DNA of 64,000 nucleotides. Source: Thermobifida alba (GTDB lineage Bacteria > Actinomycetota > Actinomycetes > Streptosporangiales > Streptosporangiaceae). Made by a program: the position numbers and the translations under genes. The notes below the pieces were generated by a model, which did not search any database, was not told where the DNA came from, and saw only the letters and a list, made by a program, of their open reading frames with translations. Positions 14,024 through 33,400 of the stretch are shown in pieces; position 1 is the first letter of the stretch; each line of letters begins with the position of its first letter. Where the stretch lies: the NCBI RefSeq assembly GCF_023208015.1, contig NZ_CP051627.1, positions 248,001 through 312,000 on the forward strand, read 5' to 3'.

Positions 14024-14146
14024 GCACCGCCGTTGGTCTTGACACGAGCGGGCACCAGGTCGCCTTCGTGCCAACCGGTGGGTGCGAGCCGGTCGGCGGG
14101 CGGCTGCGGGGCGGGGTGCGGGTGGGTGCTGGACCAGCGGGTGTGT

Positions 14147-14171
14147 TTCGGCCGGGAGGCCCGGCAGCCTT
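14147..14171 (-). repeat. 25-bp dispersed repeat core, reverse copy 1
   Basis: TTCGGCCGGGAGGCCCGGCA followed by GCCTT. It is the reverse complement (with three or four changes) of the core at 14344-14368, so the pair can fold into a large stem-loop about 220 bp across. Confidence 0.8.
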
Positions 14172-14321
14172 GTCCGAGCCCCGGGGTCTCGGAGGGGTTG
14201 TCGGGTGGCGGGTGTGCGGGGGTGAAGCGCCGCGGGGCTGGGAAGGCGCAGTGTCGCGGGGTTGGGGAAGTGAAGCGCCGCGGGGCTGGGGAGGTGAAGC
14301 GCTGCGGGACGACGACAGTCC

Positions 14322-14368
14322 CTCCGGTACCGGAGCGGCGGTGAAGGTTGCCGCGCCTCGCGGCCGAA
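14322..14368 (+). repeat. Palindrome CTCCGGTACCGGAG plus forward repeat core, copy 1
   Basis: The perfect 14-bp palindrome at 14322-14335 is followed 8 bp later by the forward core AAGGTTGCCGCGCCTCGCGG CCGAA at 14344-14368. This palindrome-core unit occurs four times in the window with almost no change. Confidence 0.8.
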
Positions 14369-14399
14369 GCAGACCGGTCGCCCGACTGCCTTCACGGCC

Positions 14400-14459
14400 A
14401 TGATCTTGGCGGAAATGGCCTATGTTCTGCGGTTTGGTGCCCCATGGTGTCACGATCAT
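14400..14459 (-). repeat. 60-bp palindromic element, copy 1
   Basis: It begins ATGATCTTGGCGG and ends CACGATCAT, so the ends are inverted repeats. On the minus strand it reads ATGATCGTGACACCATGGGG..., which aligns along its length with copies at 14771, 16534 and 21592. It has the look of a small palindromic insertion (REP or MITE-like). Confidence 0.7.
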
Positions 14460-14517
14460 GGCGGTTGGGGGCGGCTGCGGGGCGGGGTGCGGGTGGGTGC
14501 TGGACCAGCGGGTGTGT

Positions 14518-14542
14518 TTCGGCCGGGAGGCCCGGCAGCCCT
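14518..14542 (-). repeat. 25-bp dispersed repeat core, reverse copy 2
   Basis: Identical to the copy at 14147 except for its last bases. It is part of the second 371-bp unit. Confidence 0.8.
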
Positions 14543-14692
14543 GCCCGAGCCCCGGGGTCTCGGAGGGATTTCCGGGTGGCGGGTGTGCGGGGGTGAAGCG
14601 CCGCGGGGCTGGGAAGGCGCAGTGTCGCGGGGCTGGGGAAGTGAAGCGCCGCGGGGTTGGGGAGGTGAAGCGCTGCGGGACGACGACAGTCC

Positions 14693-14739
14693 CTCCGGTA
14701 CCGGAGCGGCGGTGAAGGTTGCCGCGCCTCGCGGCCGAA
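14693..14739 (+). repeat. Palindrome plus forward repeat core, copy 2
   Basis: CTCCGGTACCGGAG at 14693-14706 and the forward core at 14715-14739, in the same spacing as copy 1. Confidence 0.8.
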
Positions 14740-14770
14740 GCACACCGGCCACCCGACCGCCTTCACGGCC

Positions 14771-14829
14771 ATGATCGTGACACCGTGGGGCACCCAACCG
14801 TGGAACACGGGCCATTTCTGTCGAGATCG
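14771..14829 (+). repeat. 60-bp palindromic element, copy 2
   Basis: It starts ATGATCGTGACACCGTGGGGC and matches the reverse strand of copy 1. The far end (CGAGATCGC) has lost the ATGATC inverted repeat, so this copy is decayed at one side. Confidence 0.65.
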
Positions 14830-15664: not shown

Positions 15665-16135
15665 CGAAAGCAGCGATCTCGCGGCCGCATGGCGGGCGGG
15701 GGTGAGCGTCCCGAGAGTCCTCGCGGCGAGGCGCACGGGCACCACACTGGGAATGCTCCTGGAGAACCTGGGGTGTCCGTACGCGCGGCCACCGATGGGG
15801 ACGGTGTCTCCGCGGCCGTGGAACCGCACTCCGCGGCGGTCCCCCACCACCTCCCTCCAGCCGACACCGACTGGCTGGCGTCGCTGCCGGAGCGGGCGCT
15901 GAGAACCCTGCGCCTGCTCACGCAGGCCGGTCGATGGTCCGGGTGCGAGGACATCGAAGAGCACCTGACAGGCATCGCCCGATCGGCGGGGAGCCGCGCG
16001 GAGGGGGCCATGACGCCGCCGTACGGCTGGGTCCACTCGGAGTTCCACCCCGAGAGCGTGTTCGTCGGCGACAACGGCGTGTACCTGCACGACTTCGCCC
16101 GCGCGTGCCACGGGCCGGGTCTTCTCGACCTCTGA
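15654..16135 (+). pseudogene. Phosphotransferase (APH/choline kinase-like) remnant
   Basis: The first frame gives WRAGVSVPRVLAARRTGTT and GMLLENLG, the hinge region of an aminoglycoside-phosphotransferase-like kinase. A second frame continues VSVRAATDGDGVSAAVEPHS and GWVHSEFHPESVFVGDNGVY then LHDFARACHGPGLLDL, where HSEFHPESV corresponds to the HGDxHxxN catalytic loop with Asp replaced by Glu and Asn by Ser. One extra G in the G4 run near 15768-15772 joins the frames. The N-lobe and the last helices are missing, so the gene is truncated at both ends as well as frameshifted. Confidence 0.55.
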
Positions 16136-16145
16136 AAGGCAGGCC

Positions 16146-16533
16146 ATGGCAGTCAGCCCCCCGTTTCTCCTGATCGACGTGGACGGCGTGCTCAACCCGT
16201 TCCCCGGTCCCGGCGGTTCCGTCCCGCCGGAGTACCGGCCCTGTCGCCTGGCCCCTGACGGGTACACCGATGTTCCGGTGTGGCTCAACCCCGACCACAG
16301 CTCCTGGATCGCGGCCGCCGGTTCCGCGGGACTGGTCCGGCCCGTCTGGGCGACAAGCTGGGCGGGTGAAGCCGGCCGCGTGGATCGACGACGACTTCAC
16401 TCCGCTCGATCACGACTGGGCGGCGCGGCGGACCTCAAGCGGAATCCCCACGCTGCTGATCAAGCCCGATCCTTACGCGGGCCTCCAGTGCCACCACATC
16501 GTCGCCGTGCGGCTGTGGGCTGACCCGCTTCCG
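16146..16533 (+). pseudogene. HAD-like hypothetical protein, internally deleted
   Basis: The start is intact: PPFLLIDVDGVLNPFPGPGG (DxDG motif), then GYTDVPVWLNPDHSSWI and LVRPVWATSWAGEA. A second frame then gives PAAWIDDDFTPLDHDWAARR and GIPTLLIKPDP. In full-length relatives (from memory) about 35-40 residues separate these blocks; here they are lost and the frame is shifted, so this is a true deletion and not a base-run error. The remaining frame runs into the palindromic element at 16534, which has replaced the natural end. Confidence 0.6.
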
Positions 16534-16597
16534 ATGATCTTGACAGCATGGGGCACCGAACCGCCCGCAGGTTATGGGGCGTTTTTGCCAAGATCAT
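16534..16597 (+). repeat. 64-bp palindromic element, copy 3
   Basis: It reads ATGATCTTGACAGCATGGGG to TTTTTGCCAAGATCAT, with matching ends ATGATCTTG/CAAGATCAT. It lies directly behind the broken HAD gene and 45 bp before the stop of the convergent HipA gene. This is the best-preserved copy of the element. Confidence 0.75.
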
Positions 16598-16641
16598 CGC
16601 GGTGGTGAACGCTGACCGCCGACTCACACGTTCGGTCCGTC

Positions 16642-17871
16642 TCAGGCGAGCAGTGTGCGGCTCCGCGCTTCGATGCTTTCGGTGACCCGGTCGCGTAGGT
16701 CGGGGAGGTCGGCGAGCAGTTCCGCCTGGGCGGGCCACGCCTCCCGGACCCGGTGGACCAGGTCGGCGACGACGTCGGCCAGGTGGGCGTCGGTGGCCTT
16801 CAGGCGGCGTTCCAGGCGGGTGAAAGCGCGAACGGTGACGTCCCCGAAGCGGCGGGAGCCCGCGAACTTCATGCCGAGTGTTTCGCCGTCGCCCATGTAG
16901 GCGCTGGTGCACACCAGGTCGTAGGCGGGGGCGAGGGTGGGTCGGCGCGGATCGTGATAGAGGAGGGACCAGTTCTTCAGGTGCGCGTCGCCGTTGGAGA
17001 TGAGCACGGTGAACGCGAGTCGACGGGCGAACTCCCGCAGTGCCCCAAGGTCCCGGCCCCGGTGGATCAGCGACGCCACCGTCTCGTAGTTGCCGTTGTA
17101 CTTCTCGTTGGGGTAGACGCCGCGCACCTGGGCGAGGTCCTCCATGTGGACGGGGCGGCGGTTCTCGTCGCGGTCGAAGCGGCGTACCGCGTAGGCGAGG
17201 TCCTCGTCGCCGGGCCACACCCGCGCGGGCAGGGAGTCGAGCTGGTCGCGGTGGTACAGCCGCACTTCGGGCACGTCGATGCCGACCGCGCGGGCCAGCG
17301 ACATCATCGCGTGCTCGTTGCGGGGCACGTCCGGGTAGAGCCGGTCGGGGAGTTTCACGATCCAGTCGCCGCCCCGCCCGAAGGCCGGGAGGGTGAGCCG
17401 GTCGCCTTCGGCGAGCATGGAGAACTTCAACGCCACCCCGGCCAGGGAGAACCGCATCTCCGGGTGGTCGTCGTGCGCGGTCGTCGGCACCGTGGCGGGC
17501 CGCTCGTCCCAGTCGGGGGCGGCGAGTTCCTCTCCGTCGTCGCAGGGCAGCACCCGAACCGCGCCGGGGAGGTCGTGGCCGACCTGGGCGAGCAGTTCCA
17601 TCTCGCGGTCGGCGGACACTCCCCGGTCGTCGGCGATCCACTGCCGCAGCACCCCTTCGGGCAGCAGGTTGGAGAACCACGGCGGCAGCCGCAGCGCGGC
17701 GGAGTGTCGGTCGGCGGGGTCCGTTTCGAAGCGCAGTCCGAGCACGGCGCGCCGGGGGTTCGCCAGGTATTCGGGGGCGAAGGTGAACCGGGTGTGGTCG
17801 CCGCGCTGGTGGAGGGTGCCCACCCGGTCCCCGTGCAGCAGGACCGCGTACCGGTGCTCAGAGAGTGTCAT
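16642..17871 (-). CDS. HipA-like serine/threonine kinase
   Basis: A 409-residue protein. The N-terminal HipA_N part (VLLHGDRVGTLHQRGDHTRF, GLRFETDP, PPWFSNLLPEG) is followed by the kinase core: LKFSMLAEGDRLTLP, WIVKLPD, NEHAMMSLARAVGI, then the catalytic NGDAHLKNW near 292-300 and APAYDLVCT near 312, the metal-binding Asp. All key residues look intact. In HipBA systems HipA phosphorylates tRNA-ligase GltX and HipB, a small HTH protein, restrains it. No HipB is next to it. Instead the start overlaps by 14 bp a DUF262 gene, so the two are made together. Confidence 0.88.
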   Translation of the reverse strand: MTLSEHRYAVLLHGDRVGTLHQRGDHTRFTFAPEYLANPRRAVLGLRFETDPADRHSAALRLPPWFSNLLPEGVLRQWIADDRGVSADREMELLAQVGHDLPGAVRVLPCDDGEELAAPDWDERPATVPTTAHDDHPEMRFSLAGVALKFSMLAEGDRLTLPAFGRGGDWIVKLPDRLYPDVPRNEHAMMSLARAVGIDVPEVRLYHRDQLDSLPARVWPGDEDLAYAVRRFDRDENRRPVHMEDLAQVRGVYPNEKYNGNYETVASLIHRGRDLGALREFARRLAFTVLISNGDAHLKNWSLLYHDPRRPTLAPAYDLVCTSAYMGDGETLGMKFAGSRRFGDVTVRAFTRLERRLKATDAHLADVVADLVHRVREAWPAQAELLADLPDLRDRVTESIEARSRTLLA

Positions 17872-19600
17872 GGTCGTCTTCGTCGGTCAGGTCCTCGATG
17901 AGGAGCTGGTCGATGGGCGGGGTGTCCTCGAAGTCCCATTCGCACATACGCGCGAGGAAATCGCGCAGGTGGTTGGTGATGGCCTGCTGCCGCTGCTGGA
18001 GGAACGGGACGATGTTCTGGGCACGGCCGAGCTCCGCTGTCTCTGGGGTCAGCAGGTGCGAGTGGAGGGTGTCCAGCCATACCTTTTTGCTCATCGTCGG
18101 CGGACGAAACCACAGGGAGTGCCCTGCGTTTTTTCCGACCTCGTCCTCCGTGAACGGGATGAACAGCCGGTTTGCGGCCCACCAGCGGTGGGACGTGGGC
18201 AGGAGCGACGGGGGGTAGACGTATCTGACGGCATCGGCGACAGTGCTCCGGTCAATCAGCGCGTCAGCAAGCTGACTGGTGTCGAATGGCTTGCCGTTGC
18301 TGGGGTCACAGGGCTGCAACGCCCACCAGGAGCACAGGGTGATCTTCGCTGACGCCTCGTTGGTCCGGAACCTGCGGAGCTCAGGAAGCGGAGGTATGGG
18401 GCGTTCGACCGCTGCCAGCAGGTCCTGGACCGAGCCGGTGAGGTCACCGGGACGGACCTTGCCGCAGAGTTGCCGGACGGCTCCCGTGGTGCTGCCCCGG
18501 AAGATCTCTGGGCCGAGCAGCGCGGTCCGCCACAGCCAGCGGCGCAGCAGTCTCCGGTTGGTCGGATCGGGGTTGGGGAAGTGCCCGAAGACCCGGGTGA
18601 GGACTACCAGAAGGTAGCGGTAGGGCAGCAGGGTGAAATGGGGAATCCCGGCGTCCTCCTGGAGGAATTCGACCGCGCGCAGCAGAGCCTCTTCGCCTTT
18701 CCGGAACGCGGTGTCCCGGTCCTCTCCTGGAAAGTCGATGGTTCCTTGGCGTTCAGCAGTACTGAATTCGAGCCGAATCTCGCGATGCACGTTCGGGCCG
18801 CGTCGGGCGAGGACCGAGGAGTGCACCGTGTCGTCGTCGATCCGGCCGAATGCCCGCTGTCTGTCGATCTGCTCGGCCATGACCCCGAAGGTCAGTGCGG
18901 GTTCCTGGTCGGACTCGTCGCCCGCGTGCAGCGCGGTGAAGATCTCCGCCCGGCTCAGCCGCTTTCCGTAGCTGTTCATCCGGTCGAAGATGTCCCGCAG
19001 GACTTCCGGGTCTTCCTGCTTCACGAGGTAGGCCGGGACAGGGTGCTGGCGGAGGATGGTCGTCAACGTGTAGGCCCGGTCCTGGAGAGCAGCTACTTCG
19101 GGGTGGTGGGCGAACCACTGGAGGAGTCGGGGGAGGTCGAAGAGGACAGGTAGCGGGAGGATGTGCGGTTCCGTGGTGAAAGGAAGCGGAGCGGTGTTTG
19201 GCTCTGTAGTGGGAGGAAGCGGAACGAACCTTTCCTCTCTCAGGTCGTAGGCGAGGGCGAATCGGGAGTCGTGCATTCCAGCCGGGTGTAGTGCGCTGGC
19301 CAGGCTGGTGACCCGCTGCTGGCCGTCGACCACCCACAGGGCTTCTTCCATGCTGGGCGCGTCGATGGAAAGCGCTCCAAGGGTGAGGCGTTGCTTCTGT
19401 GCGGGGCGGAGCCACAGCAGGAGGCTGCCCACGGGATAACCCTTGATGATGCTGTCGAAGAGTCTAATCACGTCGTCACGGCCCCACCGGAACCCGCGCT
19501 GGAAGTGGGGGACCCGGATCTGTCCACGCCAGGCCAACTGGACCAGCCGTTCGACCTCGTATGTCGTCGCTTCAGGGCGGTTGTCCAGGCCGGTGGGCAT
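17858..19600 (-). CDS. DUF262-domain protein (ParB-like nuclease fold)
   Basis: A 580-residue protein. The N-terminal DUF262 domain shows VPHFQRGFRWGRDDVIRLFD, IIKGYPVGSLLLWL and WVVDGQQRVTSLASAL, where DGQQR is the conserved active-site motif of this ParB/sulfiredoxin-like fold. DUF262 occurs in GmrSD and BrxU modification-dependent nucleases and other defence proteins. The C-terminal half is helical, with no visible HNH/DUF1524 motif of GmrD. The ATG at 19600 follows GAGGAGCAGTG, preferred over a GTG at 19603. The 14-bp overlap with hipA suggests it acts with or restrains the kinase. Confidence 0.82.
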   Translation of the reverse strand: MPTGLDNRPEATTYEVERLVQLAWRGQIRVPHFQRGFRWGRDDVIRLFDSIIKGYPVGSLLLWLRPAQKQRLTLGALSIDAPSMEEALWVVDGQQRVTSLASALHPAGMHDSRFALAYDLREERFVPLPPTTEPNTAPLPFTTEPHILPLPVLFDLPRLLQWFAHHPEVAALQDRAYTLTTILRQHPVPAYLVKQEDPEVLRDIFDRMNSYGKRLSRAEIFTALHAGDESDQEPALTFGVMAEQIDRQRAFGRIDDDTVHSSVLARRGPNVHREIRLEFSTAERQGTIDFPGEDRDTAFRKGEEALLRAVEFLQEDAGIPHFTLLPYRYLLVVLTRVFGHFPNPDPTNRRLLRRWLWRTALLGPEIFRGSTTGAVRQLCGKVRPGDLTGSVQDLLAAVERPIPPLPELRRFRTNEASAKITLCSWWALQPCDPSNGKPFDTSQLADALIDRSTVADAVRYVYPPSLLPTSHRWWAANRLFIPFTEDEVGKNAGHSLWFRPPTMSKKVWLDTLHSHLLTPETAELGRAQNIVPFLQQRQQAITNHLRDFLARMCEWDFEDTPPIDQLLIEDLTDEDDHDTL

Positions 19601-19709
19601 CACTGCTCCTCAGAGGAAGGCTGTCGGATTGTCGGATCGCTGGGTTTCTTCGCGGCCGATGAAGGTCTCCCGAGCCATTGTCGCAGGGCGGACGCCTCAC
19701 GTCGGGCCT

Positions 19710-20612
19710 TCACAGGTGGGGTTGGATGCGGGTGTGGACGGTGGTTTTGCTGAGGCCGACGGAGTGGGCGATGGCGGCGAGGGATTCGCCGGCTTGGTAG
19801 CGGCGGGCGAGTTCGCTGTCGGGGATGCCGATGTCTTTTCTGCGGCGGCCGGAGGGTTGGGGTGGGGTGGTGCGTTGGGCTTTGCGGCGTTGGCGCAGGC
19901 GCAGGACGGTGCCGGTGACGGTGCGGGTGGTGGGCTGTTTGCCGCGCACGTCGTGGCCCCAGGGGCGGGACGGGGTCTCGTGTTCGTGCCATAGGGCGAG
20001 GAAGGCCCGGCGGGCTCGGGAGAGGGCGGACAGGTAGCTGTGGTATTTCAGGCCGACGGCTTGGGCGGCTTGGGTGTAGTCGTCGTGGGCCGCGAGGGCG
20101 AGTAGGAGTTGGCGGTGGCGGGGGCGTAGGCGGGGCCAGATCTGGGCGAGGGCGAGGCGGTCCACCACGGCCGCCTCGGGGCTGGGATGCGGGTTGGCGG
20201 CCAAGGCCCAGTAGCGTTCGAAGCCGGGGCGGGTGGTCGCGTGGTAGCCGGGCTGCCAGCCGCGGAAGGCGCAGTCGGCGCGGGCTTCGTGGCGGATGGC
20301 GGTCCAGGCGAGGGTGAGCAGGGTGTGGCGGGTGGGGGCCTGGTCGGTTGCGTAGAGGTGGGTGGTGATGGCCTCCCAGGCGGCTTGGACGCGGATGTCG
20401 CGGTTGAGGTGGCTGCGGTGGTGGACGGTGGCGGCGGCGGTTGCGGCGATGTCGTCGAGTTCGGCGAGGGTGTAGCCGAACCGTAGGGGTTCGTGGCGGG
20501 GGTCGAAGGCGGCGGGGGCGGGTGCGGGCACGGCGGGTGTGGTGTCGGGCATGGCACTGGGGTCAAGTTCGGCGTCGAGGTTGGGCATGGCGTCGGTGTC
20601 GGGGGTGGTCAT
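19710..20612 (-). CDS. Sigma-70-like helix-turn-helix protein
   Basis: About 300 residues. The first 40 are Pro/Ala/Asp-rich. The middle (YTLAELDDIAATAAATVHHR, AWEAITTHLYAT, LTLAWTAIRHEAR) looks like a sigma region 2 helix bundle. RLRPRHRQLLLALAAHDDYTQAAQAVGLKYHSYLSALSRARRAF is spread over a region-4-like HTH, and a second HTH sits at the C-terminus (DSELARRYQAGESLAAIAHS then VGLSKTTVHTRI). It is probably a DNA-binding regulator. The start is uncertain: ATG 20642 abuts a repeat core, so 20612 is preferred; neither has a clear ribosome site. It lies 109 bp before the DUF262-hipA pair on the same strand and may regulate it. Confidence 0.65.
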   Translation of the reverse strand: MTTPDTDAMPNLDAELDPSAMPDTTPAVPAPAPAAFDPRHEPLRFGYTLAELDDIAATAAATVHHRSHLNRDIRVQAAWEAITTHLYATDQAPTRHTLLTLAWTAIRHEARADCAFRGWQPGYHATTRPGFERYWALAANPHPSPEAAVVDRLALAQIWPRLRPRHRQLLLALAAHDDYTQAAQAVGLKYHSYLSALSRARRAFLALWHEHETPSRPWGHDVRGKQPTTRTVTGTVLRLRQRRKAQRTTPPQPSGRRRKDIGIPDSELARRYQAGESLAAIAHSVGLSKTTVHTRIQPHL

Positions 20613-20640
20613 GGACGGGTTGTCACGGTTGCGGGTGGGC

Positions 20641-21433
20641 ATCGGCCGGGAGGCCCGGCAGCCTTGACCGGGGGCTGGGGTGTGGGAGGGATTGGGAAGG
20701 CGGGCGTCTCCAGGCGGCTGGTGTTGGGGAGGGGGGAAAGGCCGGGGCCTGGGGCGGGGTTTCCCGGTGGCAGGGGCGAGGCCCTGTGGGGTGCGGGGCC
20801 TTCAGGGGCGTGGGCATGGCCGGGGACCAGGTGAGGCCCTTGGACCAAGCCGGGGTGGGAGGGGAAGGGGTTTGAGTCCCTCCGGAACCTGGGGCGGGGC
20901 AGATTGGGTGTGGAGAAGGAGGGGGTTGAGTCCCTCCGGTACCGGAGCGGCGGTGAAGGCTGCCGCGCCTCGCGGCCGAAGCAGCGGGAAAGGTTTCCGG
21001 TTGTGGGCCTCCCGGGCGGGTGGGGCGCGGGTGATCCTCGGCCGGGAGGCCCGGCAGCTTTGGCCTGGTCCGGGGTGCGGGAGGGGTTGGGAAGGCGGGC
21101 GTTTCCAAGGGGCAGGGCGAGGTGAAAGGCCCGGGGTGCGGCTGGCTTCCTGGGCGGTGAGGGGTTGAGTCCTTCCGGGGGGGCGGGGTTTTTGGGTGGT
21201 AGGGGGTTGAGTCCTCCCGGGGGTGGAGGGCTGGCTTCCTGGGTGGTAGGGGGTTGAGTCCCTCCGGTACCGGAGCGGCGGTGAAGGCTGCCGCGCCTCG
21301 CGGCCGAAGCAGACGTGTGGGTTTTCGGCTTTGGGTGCTCCAGGCGGGTGGGGTGCGGGGTTGGTGTCGGGTGTGGGCATGGGTGGGCTTTCACGGATGC
21401 GGGTGGTCTTCGGCCGGGAGGCCCGGCAGCCTT
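20641..21433. repeat. Second repeat block: five alternating cores
   Basis: Cores alternate in orientation: reverse 20641-20665, forward 20956-20980, reverse 21037-21061, forward 21284-21308, reverse 21409-21433. Each forward core follows a CTCCGGTACCGGAG palindrome (20934-20947, 21262-21275). Between them GGGTTGAGTCC(C/T)TCCGG-like pieces recur near 20871, 20926, 21161, 21206 and 21251, and GGGAAGGCGGGCGTCTCCAG near 20694 and 21463. No gene is supported in 20643-21694; open frames here repeat the same CFGREARQP-type peptide and are repeat by-products. Confidence 0.8.
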
Positions 21434-21591: not shown

Positions 21592-21648
21592 ATGTTGACG
21601 TGAGTGGGCGATAACGGGCGGATATGGCCCCCACGGCGTCAAGATCAT
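21592..21648 (-). repeat. 57-bp palindromic element, copy 4
   Basis: On the minus strand it reads ATGATCTTGACGCCGTGGGG GCCATATCCGCCCGTTATCG, aligning with copies 1-3. The other end (ATGTTGACG) is a shortened inverted repeat. It lies 47 bp past the stop of the anti-sigma-like gene at 21695, the position of a terminator. Confidence 0.65.
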
Positions 21649-21694
21649 CGGGGGTGGTGGGTCCTTGGTGGTGGGGGACCAGGGGATGCGGGGG

Positions 21695-24158: not shown

Positions 24159-24251
24159 CGTTTCTGGGGTTGTTGACGCTGTTGTCACTCTGATCGGTCA
24201 CAATGGGGAGGGTCTGTCCATCCCCCGTCCCCGTTGTGGCCAGGAGTGCCC

Positions 24252-27200
24252 ATGATCGACCATGCTTCCCTACTCAAGGATCTCCAACAGCAGGTCCGCA
24301 TCCTGGAGAAGGACCTCCGCGAACGCAGTGAGGACCCCGAGGCGGTCAACGAACACAGCGGTGAGCCCTTCGTCCACGAGTTGAAGCGTGAGTACCAGCG
24401 GGCACTGGATGCTGAGCGGACCGCTTCCACCTACGGAGCTTGGCGGGATGAGCGGGTGACCCAGGCGGCGGTGGCCTGGGTGCTGGCCACGGTCTTCGTC
24501 CGGTTCTGCGAGGACAACCGGCTTTTGGAGCAGCCGTTCATCGCCGGGCCGCGCGACGCTGCCGGGCGCTATGACATCGCCCAGGAGTTGCGGGACGCCT
24601 GGGTGGCCGAGGACCGCTCCCGCACCGACCGCGACTGGCTGGTGCACGCCTTCAAGGCGATGAGCGTGTCGCCGATCATGGCCGGGCTGTTCGACCGCGC
24701 CCACAACCCGATGTGGACCATCACCCCGTCCCACCAGGCGGCCAAGAACCTGATCGGGTTCTGGCGTGAGGTCGGCGACGACGGCCACCTCCGCCACGAC
24801 TTCACCGACCAGGAGTGGAACACCCGGTTCCTCGGCGACCTGTACCAGGACCTCTCAGAGGACATCCGCGAGAACTACGCGCTCTTTCAGACCCCGGAGT
24901 TTGTGGAGGAGTTCATCCTCGACCACACCCTGGAACCGGCCATTGAGGAGTTCGGCCTCGACGGCAACAAGATCTACCAGGCCGACAACAAGGGCTTCCG
25001 GCTCATCGACCCGACCTGCGGTTCGGGGCACTTCCTGCTGGGCGCATTCCACCGACTGCTAGCCAAGTGGCGCGAGGCCGAACCCGGTGCCTCGGACTGG
25101 GATCTGATCGCCCGCGCCCTGCGCAGTGTGCACGGGGTGGACAAGAACCCCTACGCCGTGGCGATCGCCCGGTTCCGGCTTCTGGTGGCAGCGATGAAGG
25201 AAGCGGGCATCACCACCCTCTCGGCGGGCAACCCCGACTGGCCGATCGTGGTGGCCACCGGCGACTCCCTCATCCACGGCCGAGGAGCGCCCGGCCGAAT
25301 GGACGAACTGTTCCAGACTGACGAGGTCCACCACTACGCCACCGAGGACGTCCACGACTACGAAGCCGAGCACGATCTGCTGGGTGTGCACAGCTACCAC
25401 GCGGTGGTGGGCAACCCGCCCTACATCACGGTCAAGGACAAACGAGAGAACCAGAACTACCGGGACCGGTATGCCACCTGTGCAGGCACTTACGCCCTGT
25501 CAGTGCCTTTCGCCGAACGGTTCTTCAACCTGGCCAAGCGCGCCGGTGGCGACGGAGCGGGCGCGGGAGTGGTCGGGCAGATCACCGCGAACTCCTTCAT
25601 GAAACGCGAGTTCGGCAAGAAGCTCATCAACGATTTCTTCCGCAACGAGGTGCGCCTGACCCACATCATCGACACCTCCGGCGCCTACATCCCCGGCCAC
25701 GGCACTCCCACCGTCATCCTCATCGGCCGCAACATGCCCAACACCCACACCACAACCGTCCGCGCGGTCCTGGGTATCCGAGGTGAACCGTCCCAGCCAC
25801 AGAATCCCGCCGAAGGACTGGTCTGGTCCGCCATCACCAACCAGATCGACCACCCGGGCAGCGAAAGCGAATGGGTCAGCGTCGCCGATCTTGCTTGGGA
25901 GAGGTTCAAGGACCACCCGTGGAGTCTGGCCGGGGGCGGGGCTGACAGCCTGATGGAATCTTTGCAGGAGAGAAGCACTAGAAAGCTCGAAGCAGAAATT
26001 CAAGAGATCGGCTTTGGTGCGGTAACCCGTGAAGACAGCGCCTACATGGTAGGACGTGGGGCACTCCAACGTCATGGGATTTCCCGAGAGCATCAGCGGG
26101 CTATCGTTGAAGGCGACGCAACAAGAGACTGGGATATTAAAAATCCTACAGTTTCTGTCTGGCCTTATTCAAGTAGCACTCTTGAGGCTGAGAGCAGTAA
26201 AGCCATTGAACGTTTTCTCTACCCTTATCGAGGAATTCTTCGTGGTCGTGTCGCTTACGGGAAAACTCAACTAGAGCGTGGGCTCAAATGGTTTGAGTAT
26301 TCGATGTTTTTTGCGGGGCGCTATAAAATCCCGCTCTCCATTGCCTTCGCTGAGGTTGCTACGCACAACCATTTCGTCCTGGACCGCGGTGGCAAGGTCT
26401 TCAAGCAGACTGCTCCGGTGATCAAGCTTCCCAAGGACGCCACGGAGGACCAGCACTTGGAACTTCTCGGGGTGCTGAATTCCTCAACGGCGTGCTTCTG
26501 GTTGAAACAGAACTGTACGTCTAAGGGCGGAAGTGGAATTGGGCGTGGGGTCCAGGATGAAGCCTGGGAAGGGCGCTACGCCTTTAACGCCACCAGGGTT
26601 CAGGAGTTCCCTCTCCCGGCTTCTCTCCCTCTAGACCGTGCTCGGGAACTCGACTCCCTGGCTCAGCGTCTTTCCTCCCTGGAGCCCTCCGCTGTGGTGG
26701 AGTCCGCCACTCCCACTCGATCCCGTCTGAATGAGGCGCGTGCCGAGTACGCCGCGATCCGGGCTCGGATGATCGCGTTGCAGGAGGAGTTGGACTGGGA
26801 CGTCTACCACCGCTATGGCCTGATCTCCGACGCCGAGCACGCCGAACTGGTGCTGCCGGATACCGCCGACGTGCCGGGTATCAACCTGGGTGAGCGCGCC
26901 TTCGAGATCGTCCTCGCCCGCAAGGTCGCCGCCGGTGAAGCGAAAACCGAGTGGTTCTCCCGCCACGGTTCCACCCCCATCACCGACCTCCCCTCCCACT
27001 GGCCGGACGCCTACAAGCGGGTCGTGGAAAAGCGCATCGAGTTCATCTCCTCCCGCCGCGACCTCGCGCTCATCGAACGTCCCGAGTGCAAGCGCCGCTG
27101 GCAGTCCGAACCCTGGGAGAAGAAGGAGAAGGCCGCCCTCAAGTCCTGGCTGCTGGACCGCTGCGAAACCCGCTCCCTGTGGTTCGCTCCCACCGACACC

Positions 27201-27947
27201 GGTGAGGACGCCCCCCGGGTCCGCTCGGTCCTGGAACTCGCCAACCGCCTCCGTGACCTGCACCCCGAGACGGTGGCCGTGGCCGACCTGTACGCCCCCG
27301 ACACCGACTTCGTCGATGTGATCGCCGAGATCGTCGCCTCCGAGCACGTGCCCTACCTGGCCGCGCTCCGCTACAAGGACTCCGGCCTGCGCAAGCGCGC
27401 CCAGTGGGAGGAGGTCTGGGAGCTGCAGCGCCAGGAGGACGCCCGCAACGCCACCCTGGCCGAGGGCGAGAAGGAGCACCGCCTCGACATCCCCGTCCCG
27501 CCGAAGTACACCTCCGCCGACTTCCGCCGCCCCTCCTACTGGTCCAACCGGGGCAAGCTCGACGTCCCCAAGGAACGCTTCGTCTCCTACCCCGGCGCGG
27601 AGGCCGACTCCGACGGCTCCCTGCTCCTCGGCTGGGCGGGCTGGGACCACGCCGAGCAGGCCACCGCCCTGGCCGACCTGGCCTACAACCGCCTGGAGGA
27701 GCACGGCTGGGCCTCCGACCGCGACCGGATGACGCCGCTGCTGGCGGGGCTGGCCGAACTGCGCCCCTGGGTGCACCAGTGGCACGCCGAGCCCGACGCC
27801 TACGGGCAGAGCCCGGCCTCCTACCTGGACGAGGACTTGGCGGACCTGAAGGACCGCACCGGTATCACCGACTCCGACATGGCCGCGTGGCGGCCTCCGG
27901 CCGCTGCCCGCGGCCGGGGCCGGGGGCGGGGCCGCGGCCGGGCCTGA
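24252..27947 (+). CDS. pglX: BREX type 2 adenine-specific DNA methyltransferase PglX
   Basis: A 1231-residue protein, the usual PglX length. The N-terminus (DHASLLKDLQQQVRILEKDL) and helical region lead to the SAM site DPTCGSGHFLLGAFHRLL near residue 253 and the amino-methylation motif NPPYITVKD near 387. The target-recognition part follows (about 570-770), then a long helical C-terminus ending in an RGRGRGRGRGRA-like tail. PglX methylates host DNA in Pgl/BREX-2 phage defence together with PglW, PglY, PglZ and helicases; none of these lie in this window. CAGGAG precedes the ATG by 5 bp. Bases 25970-26560 have far lower GC than the rest. Confidence 0.9.
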   Translation: MIDHASLLKDLQQQVRILEKDLRERSEDPEAVNEHSGEPFVHELKREYQRALDAERTASTYGAWRDERVTQAAVAWVLATVFVRFCEDNRLLEQPFIAGPRDAAGRYDIAQELRDAWVAEDRSRTDRDWLVHAFKAMSVSPIMAGLFDRAHNPMWTITPSHQAAKNLIGFWREVGDDGHLRHDFTDQEWNTRFLGDLYQDLSEDIRENYALFQTPEFVEEFILDHTLEPAIEEFGLDGNKIYQADNKGFRLIDPTCGSGHFLLGAFHRLLAKWREAEPGASDWDLIARALRSVHGVDKNPYAVAIARFRLLVAAMKEAGITTLSAGNPDWPIVVATGDSLIHGRGAPGRMDELFQTDEVHHYATEDVHDYEAEHDLLGVHSYHAVVGNPPYITVKDKRENQNYRDRYATCAGTYALSVPFAERFFNLAKRAGGDGAGAGVVGQITANSFMKREFGKKLINDFFRNEVRLTHIIDTSGAYIPGHGTPTVILIGRNMPNTHTTTVRAVLGIRGEPSQPQNPAEGLVWSAITNQIDHPGSESEWVSVADLAWERFKDHPWSLAGGGADSLMESLQERSTRKLEAEIQEIGFGAVTREDSAYMVGRGALQRHGISREHQRAIVEGDATRDWDIKNPTVSVWPYSSSTLEAESSKAIERFLYPYRGILRGRVAYGKTQLERGLKWFEYSMFFAGRYKIPLSIAFAEVATHNHFVLDRGGKVFKQTAPVIKLPKDATEDQHLELLGVLNSSTACFWLKQNCTSKGGSGIGRGVQDEAWEGRYAFNATRVQEFPLPASLPLDRARELDSLAQRLSSLEPSAVVESATPTRSRLNEARAEYAAIRARMIALQEELDWDVYHRYGLISDAEHAELVLPDTADVPGINLGERAFEIVLARKVAAGEAKTEWFSRHGSTPITDLPSHWPDAYKRVVEKRIEFISSRRDLALIERPECKRRWQSEPWEKKEKAALKSWLLDRCETRSLWFAPTDTGEDAPRVRSVLELANRLRDLHPETVAVADLYAPDTDFVDVIAEIVASEHVPYLAALRYKDSGLRKRAQWEEVWELQRQEDARNATLAEGEKEHRLDIPVPPKYTSADFRRPSYWSNRGKLDVPKERFVSYPGAEADSDGSLLLGWAGWDHAEQATALADLAYNRLEEHGWASDRDRMTPLLAGLAELRPWVHQWHAEPDAYGQSPASYLDEDLADLKDRTGITDSDMAAWRPPAAARGRGRGRGRGRA

Positions 27948-30134: not shown

Positions 30135-30359
30135 CCGATTCCCTCCTCTCCTCCGGCGGGTCGTGCGCCGCCGGATTTTCCCTGCTCCCCCCATGATCGC
30201 CTCCGACCTCGGGGAATACCCGGGAAACCGGGAAAACAGCCGGTTTTCCGGGGGTGGGGACACCGGTGGCGGTCCCGTATCGTCCCAGGTCACGGCGGCA
30301 TGCCGGGAAAGTTGTGACAAAGGATGATCGGTGGTGCTCTGGGGGTTTTCCGGGAAAGA
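30135..30359. other. Intergenic region with GGAAAACCGG-rich inverted repeats
   Basis: Between the divergent protease and mannanase genes. It holds CCGGGAAACCGGGAAAACAG followed by CCGGTTTTCCGGGG near 30222-30255, and GGTTTTCCGGGAAAG near 30344. These resemble each other and the operator core CCGG but do not match the 12-bp consensus. No gene is seen. Confidence 0.4.
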
Positions 30360-30371
30360 AAAACCGGTTCA
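30360..30371. promoter_or_regulatory. LacI-type operator 1 of the mannanase gene
   Basis: AAAACCGGTTCA, matching the window consensus TGAACCGGTTCA in 10 of 12 positions. Its centre is 24 bp from operator 2, so both lie on nearly the same DNA face after two turns plus a little. Confidence 0.6.
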
Positions 30372-30383
30372 CCGGAAAATGGC

Positions 30384-30395
30384 TGAACCGGTTGT
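30384..30395. promoter_or_regulatory. LacI-type operator 2 of the mannanase gene
   Basis: TGAACCGGTTGT, 10 of 12 to the consensus, about 107 bp before the mannanase start. Same site type as upstream of the LacI gene, the importer and the beta-mannosidase. Confidence 0.65.
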
Positions 30396-30502
30396 GTGAA
30401 GTGCACCACTGGGGCTATCGTGGCGTCGGCGCCTCAGGAGGGAAACGGCAAGCGGGGCCGCGTAATCCACTCGTGTACACCCCTGCTTTCGTGAGGAAGG
30501 CC

Positions 30503-31867
30503 ATGAGAAAACGCCTCACGGTCGCGGCAGCGACGGTTCTCGCGCTGCTCGCCTCCGTCTTCGTCATCGCGCAGCCGGCCGGCGCCGCCACCGGTCTGCA
30601 CGTCCAGAACGGACGGCTCCACGAGGCCAACGGCCAGGAGTTCGTCATCCGCGGCGTCAGCCACCCCCACAACTGGTACCCCCAGCACACCGGCGCCTTC
30701 GCCGACATCAAGGCGCACGGCGCCAACACCGTGCGCGTGGTGCTGAGCAACGGCGTCCGCTGGGCCAAGAACGGCCCCTCCGACGTCGCCGGCGTCATTT
30801 CCCTGTGCAAGCAGAACCGCCTCATCTGCATGCTGGAGGTGCACGACACCACCGGCTACGGGGAGGAGGGCGCCGCCTCCACCCTCGACCAGGCCGTCGA
30901 CTACTGGATCGAGCTGAAGAGCGTGCTGCAGGGCGAGGAGGACTACGTCCTGATCAACATCGGCAACGAGCCCTACGGCAACGACGCCGCCACGGTGGCC
31001 GACTGGGCCCCCGACACCTCCGCCGCCATCCAGCGGCTGCGCGGCGCGGGCTTCGACCACACCCTCGTGGTGGACGCCCCCAACTGGGGCCAGGACTGGT
31101 CGCACACCATGCGCGACAACGCCGCCGGCGTCTACGCCAGCGACCCGACCGGCAACACCGTCTTCTCGATCCACATGTACGGCGTCTACGCGCAGGGCGC
31201 CACGGTCACCAGCTACCTGGAGCACTTCGTCAACGCCGGCCTGCCGATCGTCATCGGCGAGTTCGGCCACGACCACTCCGACGGCAACCCCGACGAGGAC
31301 ACCATCATGGCCGAGGCCGAGCGGCTGGGCCTGGGCTACATCGGCTGGTCGTGGAGCGGCAACAGCGGCGGCGTCGAGTACCTGGACATGGTCGACGACT
31401 TCGACGGCGACAGCCTGACCCCGTGGGGACAGCGGATCTTCTACGGCCCCGACGGCATCGCCGACACCGCCCAGGAGGCCACGGTCTTCGGCCCGCCGAC
31501 CGAGCCCACGGACCCGCCGACCGAGCCCACCGATCCGCCGACCGAGCCCACGGACCCGCCGGTGGAGCCCACGGGCGACTGCACGGCCGCCTACGCCACC
31601 ATCGGCAGCTGGGGCGGCGGCTTCCAGGGCGAGGTCACGGTCACCGCGGGCGACTCCGCCATCTCCAACTGGACGGTGAGCTGGACCTTCCCCGGCGGCC
31701 AGACCGTCAGCCAGGGCTGGAACGCCAGCTTCAGCGGCAGCAGCTCGGTCACGGCCGGCAACGTGTCCTACAACGGCCAGCTGGGCGCCGGGCAGTCCAC
31801 CGCGTTCGGCTTCATCGGCTCGGGCAGCGCCCCCGACTCGCTGGTGCTGAGCTGCACGACCGACTGA
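30503..31867 (+). CDS. Secreted GH5 beta-mannanase with C-terminal CBM2
   Basis: A 454-residue secreted enzyme. The signal peptide (RKRLTVAAATVLALLASVF, cut after AGAA near residue 31) is followed by a GH5 subfamily 8-like catalytic domain: GVSHPHNWYPQH, NIGNEPYG near 151 (acid/base Glu) and GEFGHDHSDG near 251 (nucleophile Glu). A PPTEPTD linker repeated three to four times (329-356) leads to a CBM2 (CTAAYATIGSWGGGFQGEVT, SWTFPGGQ, QGWNASFSGS) that binds cellulose. It should cut the beta-1,4 backbone of mannan on plant cell walls. GAGGAAGG precedes the ATG. Matches my memory of the T. fusca mannanase beside celE. Two LacI-type operators lie upstream. Confidence 0.92.
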   Translation: MRKRLTVAAATVLALLASVFVIAQPAGAATGLHVQNGRLHEANGQEFVIRGVSHPHNWYPQHTGAFADIKAHGANTVRVVLSNGVRWAKNGPSDVAGVISLCKQNRLICMLEVHDTTGYGEEGAASTLDQAVDYWIELKSVLQGEEDYVLINIGNEPYGNDAATVADWAPDTSAAIQRLRGAGFDHTLVVDAPNWGQDWSHTMRDNAAGVYASDPTGNTVFSIHMYGVYAQGATVTSYLEHFVNAGLPIVIGEFGHDHSDGNPDEDTIMAEAERLGLGYIGWSWSGNSGGVEYLDMVDDFDGDSLTPWGQRIFYGPDGIADTAQEATVFGPPTEPTDPPTEPTDPPTEPTDPPVEPTGDCTAAYATIGSWGGGFQGEVTVTAGDSAISNWTVSWTFPGGQTVSQGWNASFSGSSSVTAGNVSYNGQLGAGQSTAFGFIGSGSAPDSLVLSCTTD

Positions 31868-31993: not shown

Positions 31994-33400
31994 TCAGCCG
32001 TTCCGGAGCTGGTCGCGCGCCCACTGCCCGGCCGACTTCAGCGAGGAGCCGTTCCACGGGCCCCCGGCCGCGCAGGTGCCGGGCCGGAAGACCGCCCCCG
32101 CACGGAAGTCGTCGGAGTAGTTCCACTTCGTCCAGCCGATCTTCTCCTGCTTCATCAGGTCCAGGTAGCGCTCGGCCATCACGTAGTCGTTGGTGCCGTC
32201 GCCGGTGTAGGACTCGGTGCCGAACTCGGTGACGAACACCGGGAACATCTGGGCCGCGCTGCGCAGCGCGTCGAGGTAGTCGTCCCGGTGCGAGGCCGCG
32301 TAGAAGTGGAAGGCGTACATGACGTTGCCGGCGTCGACCGGGTCGGCGGCGATCTCCGCGGGGCCGGAGCCCTCGGAGACGCCGAGCGAGGACCAGCCGG
32401 GGGTGCCGACGATGACCACCGAGTCGGGGTCGCGCTGGCGGATCACCGGGATGACCTCCTCGGCGTAGCTCTTGATCGAGGCCCAGCTCACCCCGTTGGG
32501 CTCGTTGGCGATCTCGTAGAGCACGTTCTCCTTGCCCGCGTGGCGCTGGGCGATCTCGGCGAAGAACGTCTTGGCCCGGTCGAGGTTGTAGTGGGGGTCG
32601 CCCGGGGTGAGGATGTGCCAGTCCACGATCACGTACAGGCCGCGCGCCGTGGCCATGTCGATCAGCTGGTGCATCCGGTCGGTGAAGCCGCGCGGGTTCG
32701 TCTCGTAGCCGTCCTCCTGGATGTACATCGACAGCCGGATGATGTCGGCCTGCCAGTCGTGGGCCAGGGCGTCCAGCGAGCTGTCGGTGAGGCAGTGGTC
32801 GAACCACTGGATGCCGTGCGTGCTCATGCCGCGCAGCTGCACCGGGTTGCCGTTCTCGTCGCACAGCTTGGTGCCGCAGACCTCGACCTTGCCGTACCGC
32901 TCGACGGGGGTGCCGGCGCCCGGGTCGGTGCCGGGGCCGCCGGGGTCCGTGCCCGGGCCGCCCGGGTCGGTGCCCGGGTCGGAGCCCTCGGCGCAGGGCG
33001 CGCCGTTGACCGTGCAGCCGACGGGGTCGCCGCTTCCACTGGCCGTGAAGCCGAAGGAGGCGGTGCCGCCCGGCGCGATGCTGCTGTTCCAGGAGACCCC
33101 GGTGAAGGTGTGGCTGGTGCCGTCGGCCGTGTGCTGGGCGTTCCACGCCTGGTTGACCGTGGTCCCGTTCGGCAGGGTGAGGACGACCTGCCAGTGGGAG
33201 ACGGTGCCGCCGGTGTCGTTGTGGACCGTGACGGAGGCGGTGTAGCCGCCGTCCCAGGTGGACTCCTTGGTGAAGGTGGCGGTGAGCCCGGCGGCGCGGG
33301 CCACGCCCGGGGAGAGCAGCGCGAGGAGGAGGGCGAGCGCGGCGGTCAGCGCGACGGCCGCCGGGGTGGCGCCCCGCAGGGCGGTGGGGGGTCTGGTCAT
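31994..33400 (-). CDS. cel5A: Secreted GH5 endo-1,4-beta-glucanase with N-terminal CBM2 (E5-like)
   Basis: A 468-residue secreted cellulase. After a signal peptide (about 36 residues, ending GVARA) comes a CBM2 (TATFTKESTWDGGYTASVTV, NQAWNAQH, GFTASGSGDP), a GTDPGGP linker, then the GH5_2 catalytic domain beginning near GKVEVCGTKLCDENG. LYEIANEPNG near 300 holds the acid/base Glu and TEFGTE near 389 the nucleophile. LRGMSTHGIQWFDHCLTDSS and much of the domain match, from memory, Cel5A/E5 of Thermobifida fusca, with differences mainly in the CBM, linker and C-terminus. It attacks amorphous cellulose. A CelR-type box precedes it. Confidence 0.95.
   Translation of the reverse strand: MTRPPTALRGATPAAVALTAALALLLALLSPGVARAAGLTATFTKESTWDGGYTASVTVHNDTGGTVSHWQVVLTLPNGTTVNQAWNAQHTADGTSHTFTGVSWNSSIAPGGTASFGFTASGSGDPVGCTVNGAPCAEGSDPGTDPGGPGTDPGGPGTDPGAGTPVERYGKVEVCGTKLCDENGNPVQLRGMSTHGIQWFDHCLTDSSLDALAHDWQADIIRLSMYIQEDGYETNPRGFTDRMHQLIDMATARGLYVIVDWHILTPGDPHYNLDRAKTFFAEIAQRHAGKENVLYEIANEPNGVSWASIKSYAEEVIPVIRQRDPDSVVIVGTPGWSSLGVSEGSGPAEIAADPVDAGNVMYAFHFYAASHRDDYLDALRSAAQMFPVFVTEFGTESYTGDGTNDYVMAERYLDLMKQEKIGWTKWNYSDDFRAGAVFRPGTCAAGGPWNGSSLKSAGQWARDQLRNG

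Follow-up and report, generated by a model that had tools for sequence, protein, structure and literature searches.

A conserved, accessory two-gene operon couples a DUF262 protein to a HipA-family kinase

A HipA-family kinase gene of the actinomycete Thermobifida alba is the second gene of a conserved, tightly coupled operon in which a DUF262 gene comes first. The two genes are co-inherited, the active sites of both products are strongly constrained, and the pair is accessory. HipA, the first of the persistence toxins, was for many years investigated only together with HipB, the small DNA-binding protein that normally restrains it. The partner here is instead a large DUF262 protein, of a type that serves in sensing foreign DNA. 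We consider it moderately likely that the pair described here forms one functional module, in which a HipA growth-arrest kinase is regulated by the DUF262 protein in HipB's stead. Such a module would probably act as a switch, in a toxin-antitoxin role or in phage defence.

Organization of the locus

The window, as we call the whole 64-kb stretch of DNA that was analysed, has a GC content of 73% and comes from the 4.9-Mb, single-contig genome of T. alba. The features of the pair are collected in Table 1. A preliminary description of this DNA had placed the start of the kinase gene 14 bp inside the DUF262 gene and had reported that no HipB accompanies the kinase. The ORF coordinates confirm the overlap, and no HipB-like gene adjoins the pair in the window. 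A gene upstream of DUF262 (19710-20642), whose 310-aa product has no more than an HTH match below threshold in Pfam, was considered as an antitoxin and rejected: its conservation does not follow that of the pair, and a congener without the pair possesses it. A promoter scan of this GC-rich stretch returned no match and is uninformative.

Table 1. Coordinates of the HipA/DUF262 pair and associated features (window positions)
Feature	Position	Strand	Basis
HipA-family Ser/Thr kinase, 409 aa, ATG start, second gene of unit	16642..17871	-	ORF call, Pfam, AF2, PDB sequence matches
DUF262 (GmrSD_N) protein, 581 aa, GTG start, first gene of unit; BrxU-like architecture, no detectable HNH	17858..19603	-	ORF call, Pfam, AF2
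14-bp overlap, DUF262 stop / HipA start (translational coupling)	17858..17871	-	ORF coordinates
Gly-loop (FSLAGV) Ser142 of HipA	17446..17448	-	invariant in 64 homologues
HipA catalytic motif NGDAHLKNW with Asp295	16969..16995	-	N293, D295, H297, K299, N300 invariant in 64
HipA Mg-binding motif YDL with Asp318	16915..16923	-	D318 invariant in 64
GmrSD_N / DUF262 domain, residues 19-226, ParB/Srx-like NTP-binding fold	18926..19549	-	Pfam E=1.1e-26; structure matches
DGQQR nucleotide-pocket motif of DUF262 protein, residues 93-97	19313..19327	-	alignment of 64
~4.0-kb segment with pair, absent at same place in congener G131	15688..19713	.	blastn of window to L235
Palindrome-type repeat copies	14439-14460, 14770-14791, 16533-16554, 16577-16598, 21628-21649

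The HipA-family kinase

Pfam recognizes Couple_hipA (residues 9-107, E=2.1e-22) and HipA_C (residues 141-379, E=3.2e-48) in the kinase, both above cut-offs, and GmrSD_N in its partner; no further Pfam domain was detected in either protein. The AlphaFold2 model of the kinase has a mean pLDDT of 92, and its PDB sequence matches are HipA, HipT and HipS. Both catalytic motifs noted earlier are present and are conserved across relatives, with S142, K149, K173, E186, D295, N300 and D318 invariant in 64 pairs; these residues include the Gly-loop serine, the ATP-binding lysine and the catalytic and Mg-binding aspartates. Ser142 occupies what we take to be the place of the autophosphorylated Ser150 in E. 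coli HipA.

HipA proteins from DUF262-linked loci form one clade (support 100/99), outside of which lie nine HipB-linked HipAs, that of E. coli among them. Helix-turn-helix genes are rare beside the DUF262-linked kinases: within 1 kb of the pair only 6 HTH matches were found across 80 loci, scattered and in some cases on the other strand or downstream, as against an HTH gene directly upstream in 9 of 12 ordinary HipA controls.

The DUF262 protein

The DGQQR motif, which the preliminary description had called intact, is indeed so and is conserved across relatives: D93, G94, Q95 and R97 are invariant in the 64 pairs, Q96 is retained in at least 90%, and VEGRQR replaces the motif in one of the 22 sequences of the order-level alignment. 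The AlphaFold2 model (mean pLDDT 90) finds its best structure match in BrxU (Z 15.9, residues 10-559), followed by SspE; the rmsd is large, so the superposition on BrxU holds domain by domain. ParB and Srx match only the N-terminal domain of the model (Z 4-6).

An HNH nuclease was sought in this protein and rejected. DUF1524/HNH was recognized by the Pfam profile in 0 of 64 DUF262 partners at E<=1, and no conserved histidine appears in the expected HNH region of the C-terminal alignment of these 64 proteins, in which H322 and H516 (58/64) are the only strongly conserved histidines. The protein is therefore BrxU-like and most likely lacks an HNH nuclease domain, so that DUF262 probably does not act as an HNH nuclease in this system; the full-length fold match to BrxU leaves a small chance of an altered nuclease.

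DUF262 partners of HipA form one clade (support 100/100). A sister clade of 8 loci is linked instead to PDC-M55A, an AAA/OLD-like ATPase, and PDC-M55B, an unknown protein. At five further sister-clade loci (L053, L054, L058, L059, L068) a RadC-family (JAB) protein is encoded directly behind DUF262, a possible partner system. Because sister clades carry PDC-M55A/B or RadC in the place of HipA, this type of DUF262 protein suggests a sensor or regulator module with exchangeable partners. DUF262 proteins without DUF1524 occur also in Menshen, Dazbog and PD-T4-2, and defence by Menshen and Dazbog requires their DUF262 genes, for whose products a regulatory or sensing role has been proposed (PMC10952713). 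Two loci (L061, L062) carry tandem DUF262 genes, the first encoding a GmrSD_N + GmrSD_C + RAMA protein of ~740 aa and the second a PDC-M55C-type protein with DUF262 alone.

Conservation and coupling of the pair

The pair was sought elsewhere by scanning ~85,000 genomes, one per species, and examining the best 80 DUF262 relatives. HipA sequence lies directly downstream in 75 of these 80, interrupted in a few of them, an arrangement far beyond chance given that so many of the closest relatives share the HipA position. Two other loci (L100, L110) are cut off by a contig edge or stop close to one, and HipA has been lost behind DUF262 in three (L078, L088, L099). The hosts are mainly Actinomycetota and include Pseudomonadota, Myxococcota, Acidobacteriota, Thermomicrobiota and Ignavibacteriota, so the pair occurs in at least six bacterial phyla. 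No natural DUF262-HipA fusion was found in the 80 loci, and neighbour clustering revealed no conserved third gene beside the pair, barring synteny common to five related actinomycete loci.

In an independent sample, the 299 genomes of the order, searches from either side gave the same picture. All 22 strong full-length DUF262 relatives (E<1e-50, the T. alba copy counted among them) have a HipA gene in the same direction directly behind, and an intact DUF262 gene precedes 22 of 23 strong full-length HipAs found in the reverse search. Three further strong HipA matches in a phylum-wide sample are all paired with DUF262. Decayed pairs were seen at L104, L106, L178 and L184/L186.

In genome G217 (L165; L187, C58:22585-23769, minus strand) a HipA belonging to the DUF262-linked clade keeps its motifs intact, and the DUF262 gene is gone. 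Since this HipA branches within the DUF262-linked clade, DUF262 was lost there, and the kinase is therefore not always lethal alone; this locus argues against the strict form of the earlier suggestion, that the kinase should be active and toxic unless restrained. The G217 gene follows a nitronate monooxygenase-like gene and is an experiment of nature on whether the kinase does harm by itself. Orphan counts were also tried as a means of telling toxin from antitoxin and set aside, three DUF262 genes without HipA against one case of the reverse being too few.

Coupling of the two genes is close. With HipA starts inferred from the alignment, 39 of 63 relatives have a start that overlaps the stop of DUF262, 20 have it 0-20 nt from the stop and 4 farther away. 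Pairwise HipA and DUF262 distances over 64 loci are strongly correlated (Mantel r=0.867, a value reached by none of 5000 permutations, of which the maximum was 0.20), a correlation that partly reflects shared species history. At places in the HipA tree one phylum is nested inside another.

Distribution and mobility

The pair is patchily distributed among close relatives, HipA of this clade being present in 0 of 3 congeners and in 25 of the order's 299 genomes. In congener G131, blastn shows both flanks kept at 84-87% identity, with window positions 15,688-19,713 replaced by ~53 bp; the ~4-kb segment that bears the pair is therefore accessory DNA. The pair also occurs, in the same gene order, on two plasmids of Azospirillum, of which one is conjugative. 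Its annotations there read 'DUF262 domain-containing protein' for the first gene and 'type II toxin-antitoxin system HipA family toxin' for the second, and the copy on the conjugative plasmid adjoins a recombinase. Phage records and viral contigs yielded only a weak partial DUF262 match.

Few neighbours of the pair are defence genes. PADLOC models matched at 1e-20 in ~10 of 125 genes near actinomycete pairs (PglX, Mokosh genes, AbiEi and others) and, around mostly non-actinobacterial pairs, in ~8 of 116 (DRT, HamB, MzaA and others). These counts are pooled over loci and stand beside a single 129-gene control sample which happened upon one CRISPR cluster.

Comparison with known systems

By analogy, the closest functional precedent for the proposed module is HipAD (DS-6A/DS-6B), which likewise consists of two genes, a HipA-related kinase and a non-HipB partner. 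HipAD is a validated phage defence in E. coli and requires its kinase activity (PMC13092281). The partners, compared by Pfam only, differ: that of HipAD is a DUF3037-DUF1829 protein, whereas Pfam finds GmrSD_N alone, and neither DUF3037 nor DUF1829, in the partner described here. With E. coli hipBA and other Hip organizations the pair shares a full-length HipA with its N-subdomain, Gly-loop serine, and catalytic and Mg-binding aspartates, and the kinase gene in second place; it departs from hipBA in that the partner is not an HTH protein and the kinase clade is apart from HipB-linked HipAs.

GmrSD, BrxU and SspE (DUF262-DUF1524) resemble the DUF262 protein in their N-terminal DUF262 with DGQQR and, for BrxU, in the full-length fold, but they differ in domain content and context, since DUF1524/HNH is absent from all 64 partners and a kinase is nearly always present here. 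The PADLOC candidate PDC-M55 and Menshen provide parallels for a DUF262 protein without DUF1524 that is coupled to other genes. Among PADLOC models, PDC-M55C matches the T. alba protein at 1e-51 (8.7e-236 for a clade member) and NsnA at 3.6e-11. PDC-M55 differs in having PDC-M55A/B as partners, as opposed to HipA alone, and in its separate clade of the DUF262 tree; PDC-M55A and PDC-M55B were never found at the HipA-linked loci examined and are confined to the 8 sister-clade loci. In ptuXYZ (PMC11980606) a DUF262 protein lacking DUF1524 adjoins a toxin-type effector, but that system has three genes, with a PtuA-like ATPase and a BECR RNase and no kinase.

The HipA module as such is known. DUF262 is not among the Hip partners named in the portion of PMC8262856 that we consulted, and we found DUF262 described as a HipA partner nowhere in the literature searched, which covered few subscription papers and no bioRxiv preprints; PMC11980606 alone joins HipA with DUF262 or GmrSD, naming both in unrelated passages. 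The preliminary proposal of an undescribed two-gene unit of a DUF262 sensor/nuclease and a HipA kinase would have been refuted by a pair that is not conserved elsewhere; the pair is conserved, in at least six phyla and with both active sites intact. The proposal thus holds for the conserved unit, of which no description was found, and lacks support for the nuclease.

Proposed function and alternatives

If the pair is a single module, the DUF262 protein would bind NTP through its DGQQR pocket and keep HipA inactive, and the two proteins would presumably be in physical contact. Invading or modified nucleic acid would be sensed, NTP binding or hydrolysis would change the conformation of the DUF262 protein, and this change would release or activate HipA. 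Freed kinase would then phosphorylate a target in the host, an aminoacyl-tRNA synthetase being likeliest by the example of other HipA/HipT kinases; the targets known for HipA kinases are of this enzyme class (PMC8262856). Phosphorylation of the target would stop growth, to be seen as abortive infection or toxin-antitoxin behaviour. In a broader form, which we put forward tentatively as a possibility, the pair would be a widespread and so far undescribed immune module: NTP-driven sensing of modified or foreign DNA by DUF262 would unleash a translation-stopping HipA, with no cutting of DNA, and the DUF262 platform would swap partners (HipA, an OLD-like ATPase, RadC).

That the pair serves maintenance or stress tolerance as a toxin-antitoxin module with no anti-phage role, the DUF262 protein being simply the antitoxin, appears rather unlikely. 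Relatives of HipA are toxins of such modules, and both the presence/absence cassette and the conjugative plasmid copy beside a recombinase would suit it. The partner would be an unusual antitoxin, however, for HipA antitoxins are usually small or DNA-binding, whereas this one is an NTPase-type protein of 550-580 aa whose invariant nucleotide motif suggests sensing, and relatives of its DUF262 clade belong to defence systems or candidates.

We think it unlikely that the logic runs in reverse, with the DUF262 protein as a DNA-acting effector through a non-HNH site and HipA as a phosphorylating on/off regulator. The full-length BrxU alignment (Z 15.9) would accommodate such an effector, H322 and H516 could mark another site, both enzymes are conserved, and a HipA without DUF262 exists and is tolerated; set against this are the lack of DUF1524 (0/64 at E<=1) and of any HNH-type histidine column, the persistence of DUF262 without the kinase in three loci, and the action of HipA kinases of known function on aminoacyl-tRNA synthetases (PMC8262856). 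Ordinary cellular signalling, with kinase and NTPase in a non-conflict pathway, is very improbable: many loci do sit amid housekeeping genes and five share a syntenic site in related actinomycetes, but the patchy occurrence (25/299 genomes of the order, 0/3 congeners), the decayed copies, the phylum-in-phylum nesting in the HipA tree and the empty site in a congener speak against it.

Should the sensor-and-kinase module prove correct, it would directly link sensing of DNA modification to a growth-arrest kinase. DUF262 would be the second type of non-HipB partner after that of HipAD, which points to HipA kinases as an effector that can be reused in immunity, and nuclease-less DUF262 proteins may be sensors open to coupling with widely differing outputs. 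Simple point mutants can be made in both active sites, which puts the idea within reach of a direct test.

Surroundings of the pair

A full-length BREX-2 PglX gene (24234-27947, plus strand; NCBIfam 1827 bits) stands alone ~4.6 kb from the pair. The sole PglZ match in the genome is at C1:4858903, and another PglX, at C1:3196271, contains one in-frame TGA. The orphan methyltransferase gene pglX has no counterpart at that place in congener G131; since the pair segment and pglX are both missing from this congener, the site is a place of turnover.

Palindrome-forming repeats of the type GATGATCTTGACnnnrTGGGGC match the window 6 times, compared with 0.09 expected, and flank the pair on both sides. 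A direct duplication of 300 nt with 96% identity is present at 14098-14397 and 14469-14768, with related repeats of 112-113 nt at 20.6-21.5 kb. Farther along the window, two convergent GH5 cellulase genes with CBM2 (30254-31867, plus strand; 31994-33400, minus strand), which point to a cellulolytic way of life, are 82-87% conserved in congeners.
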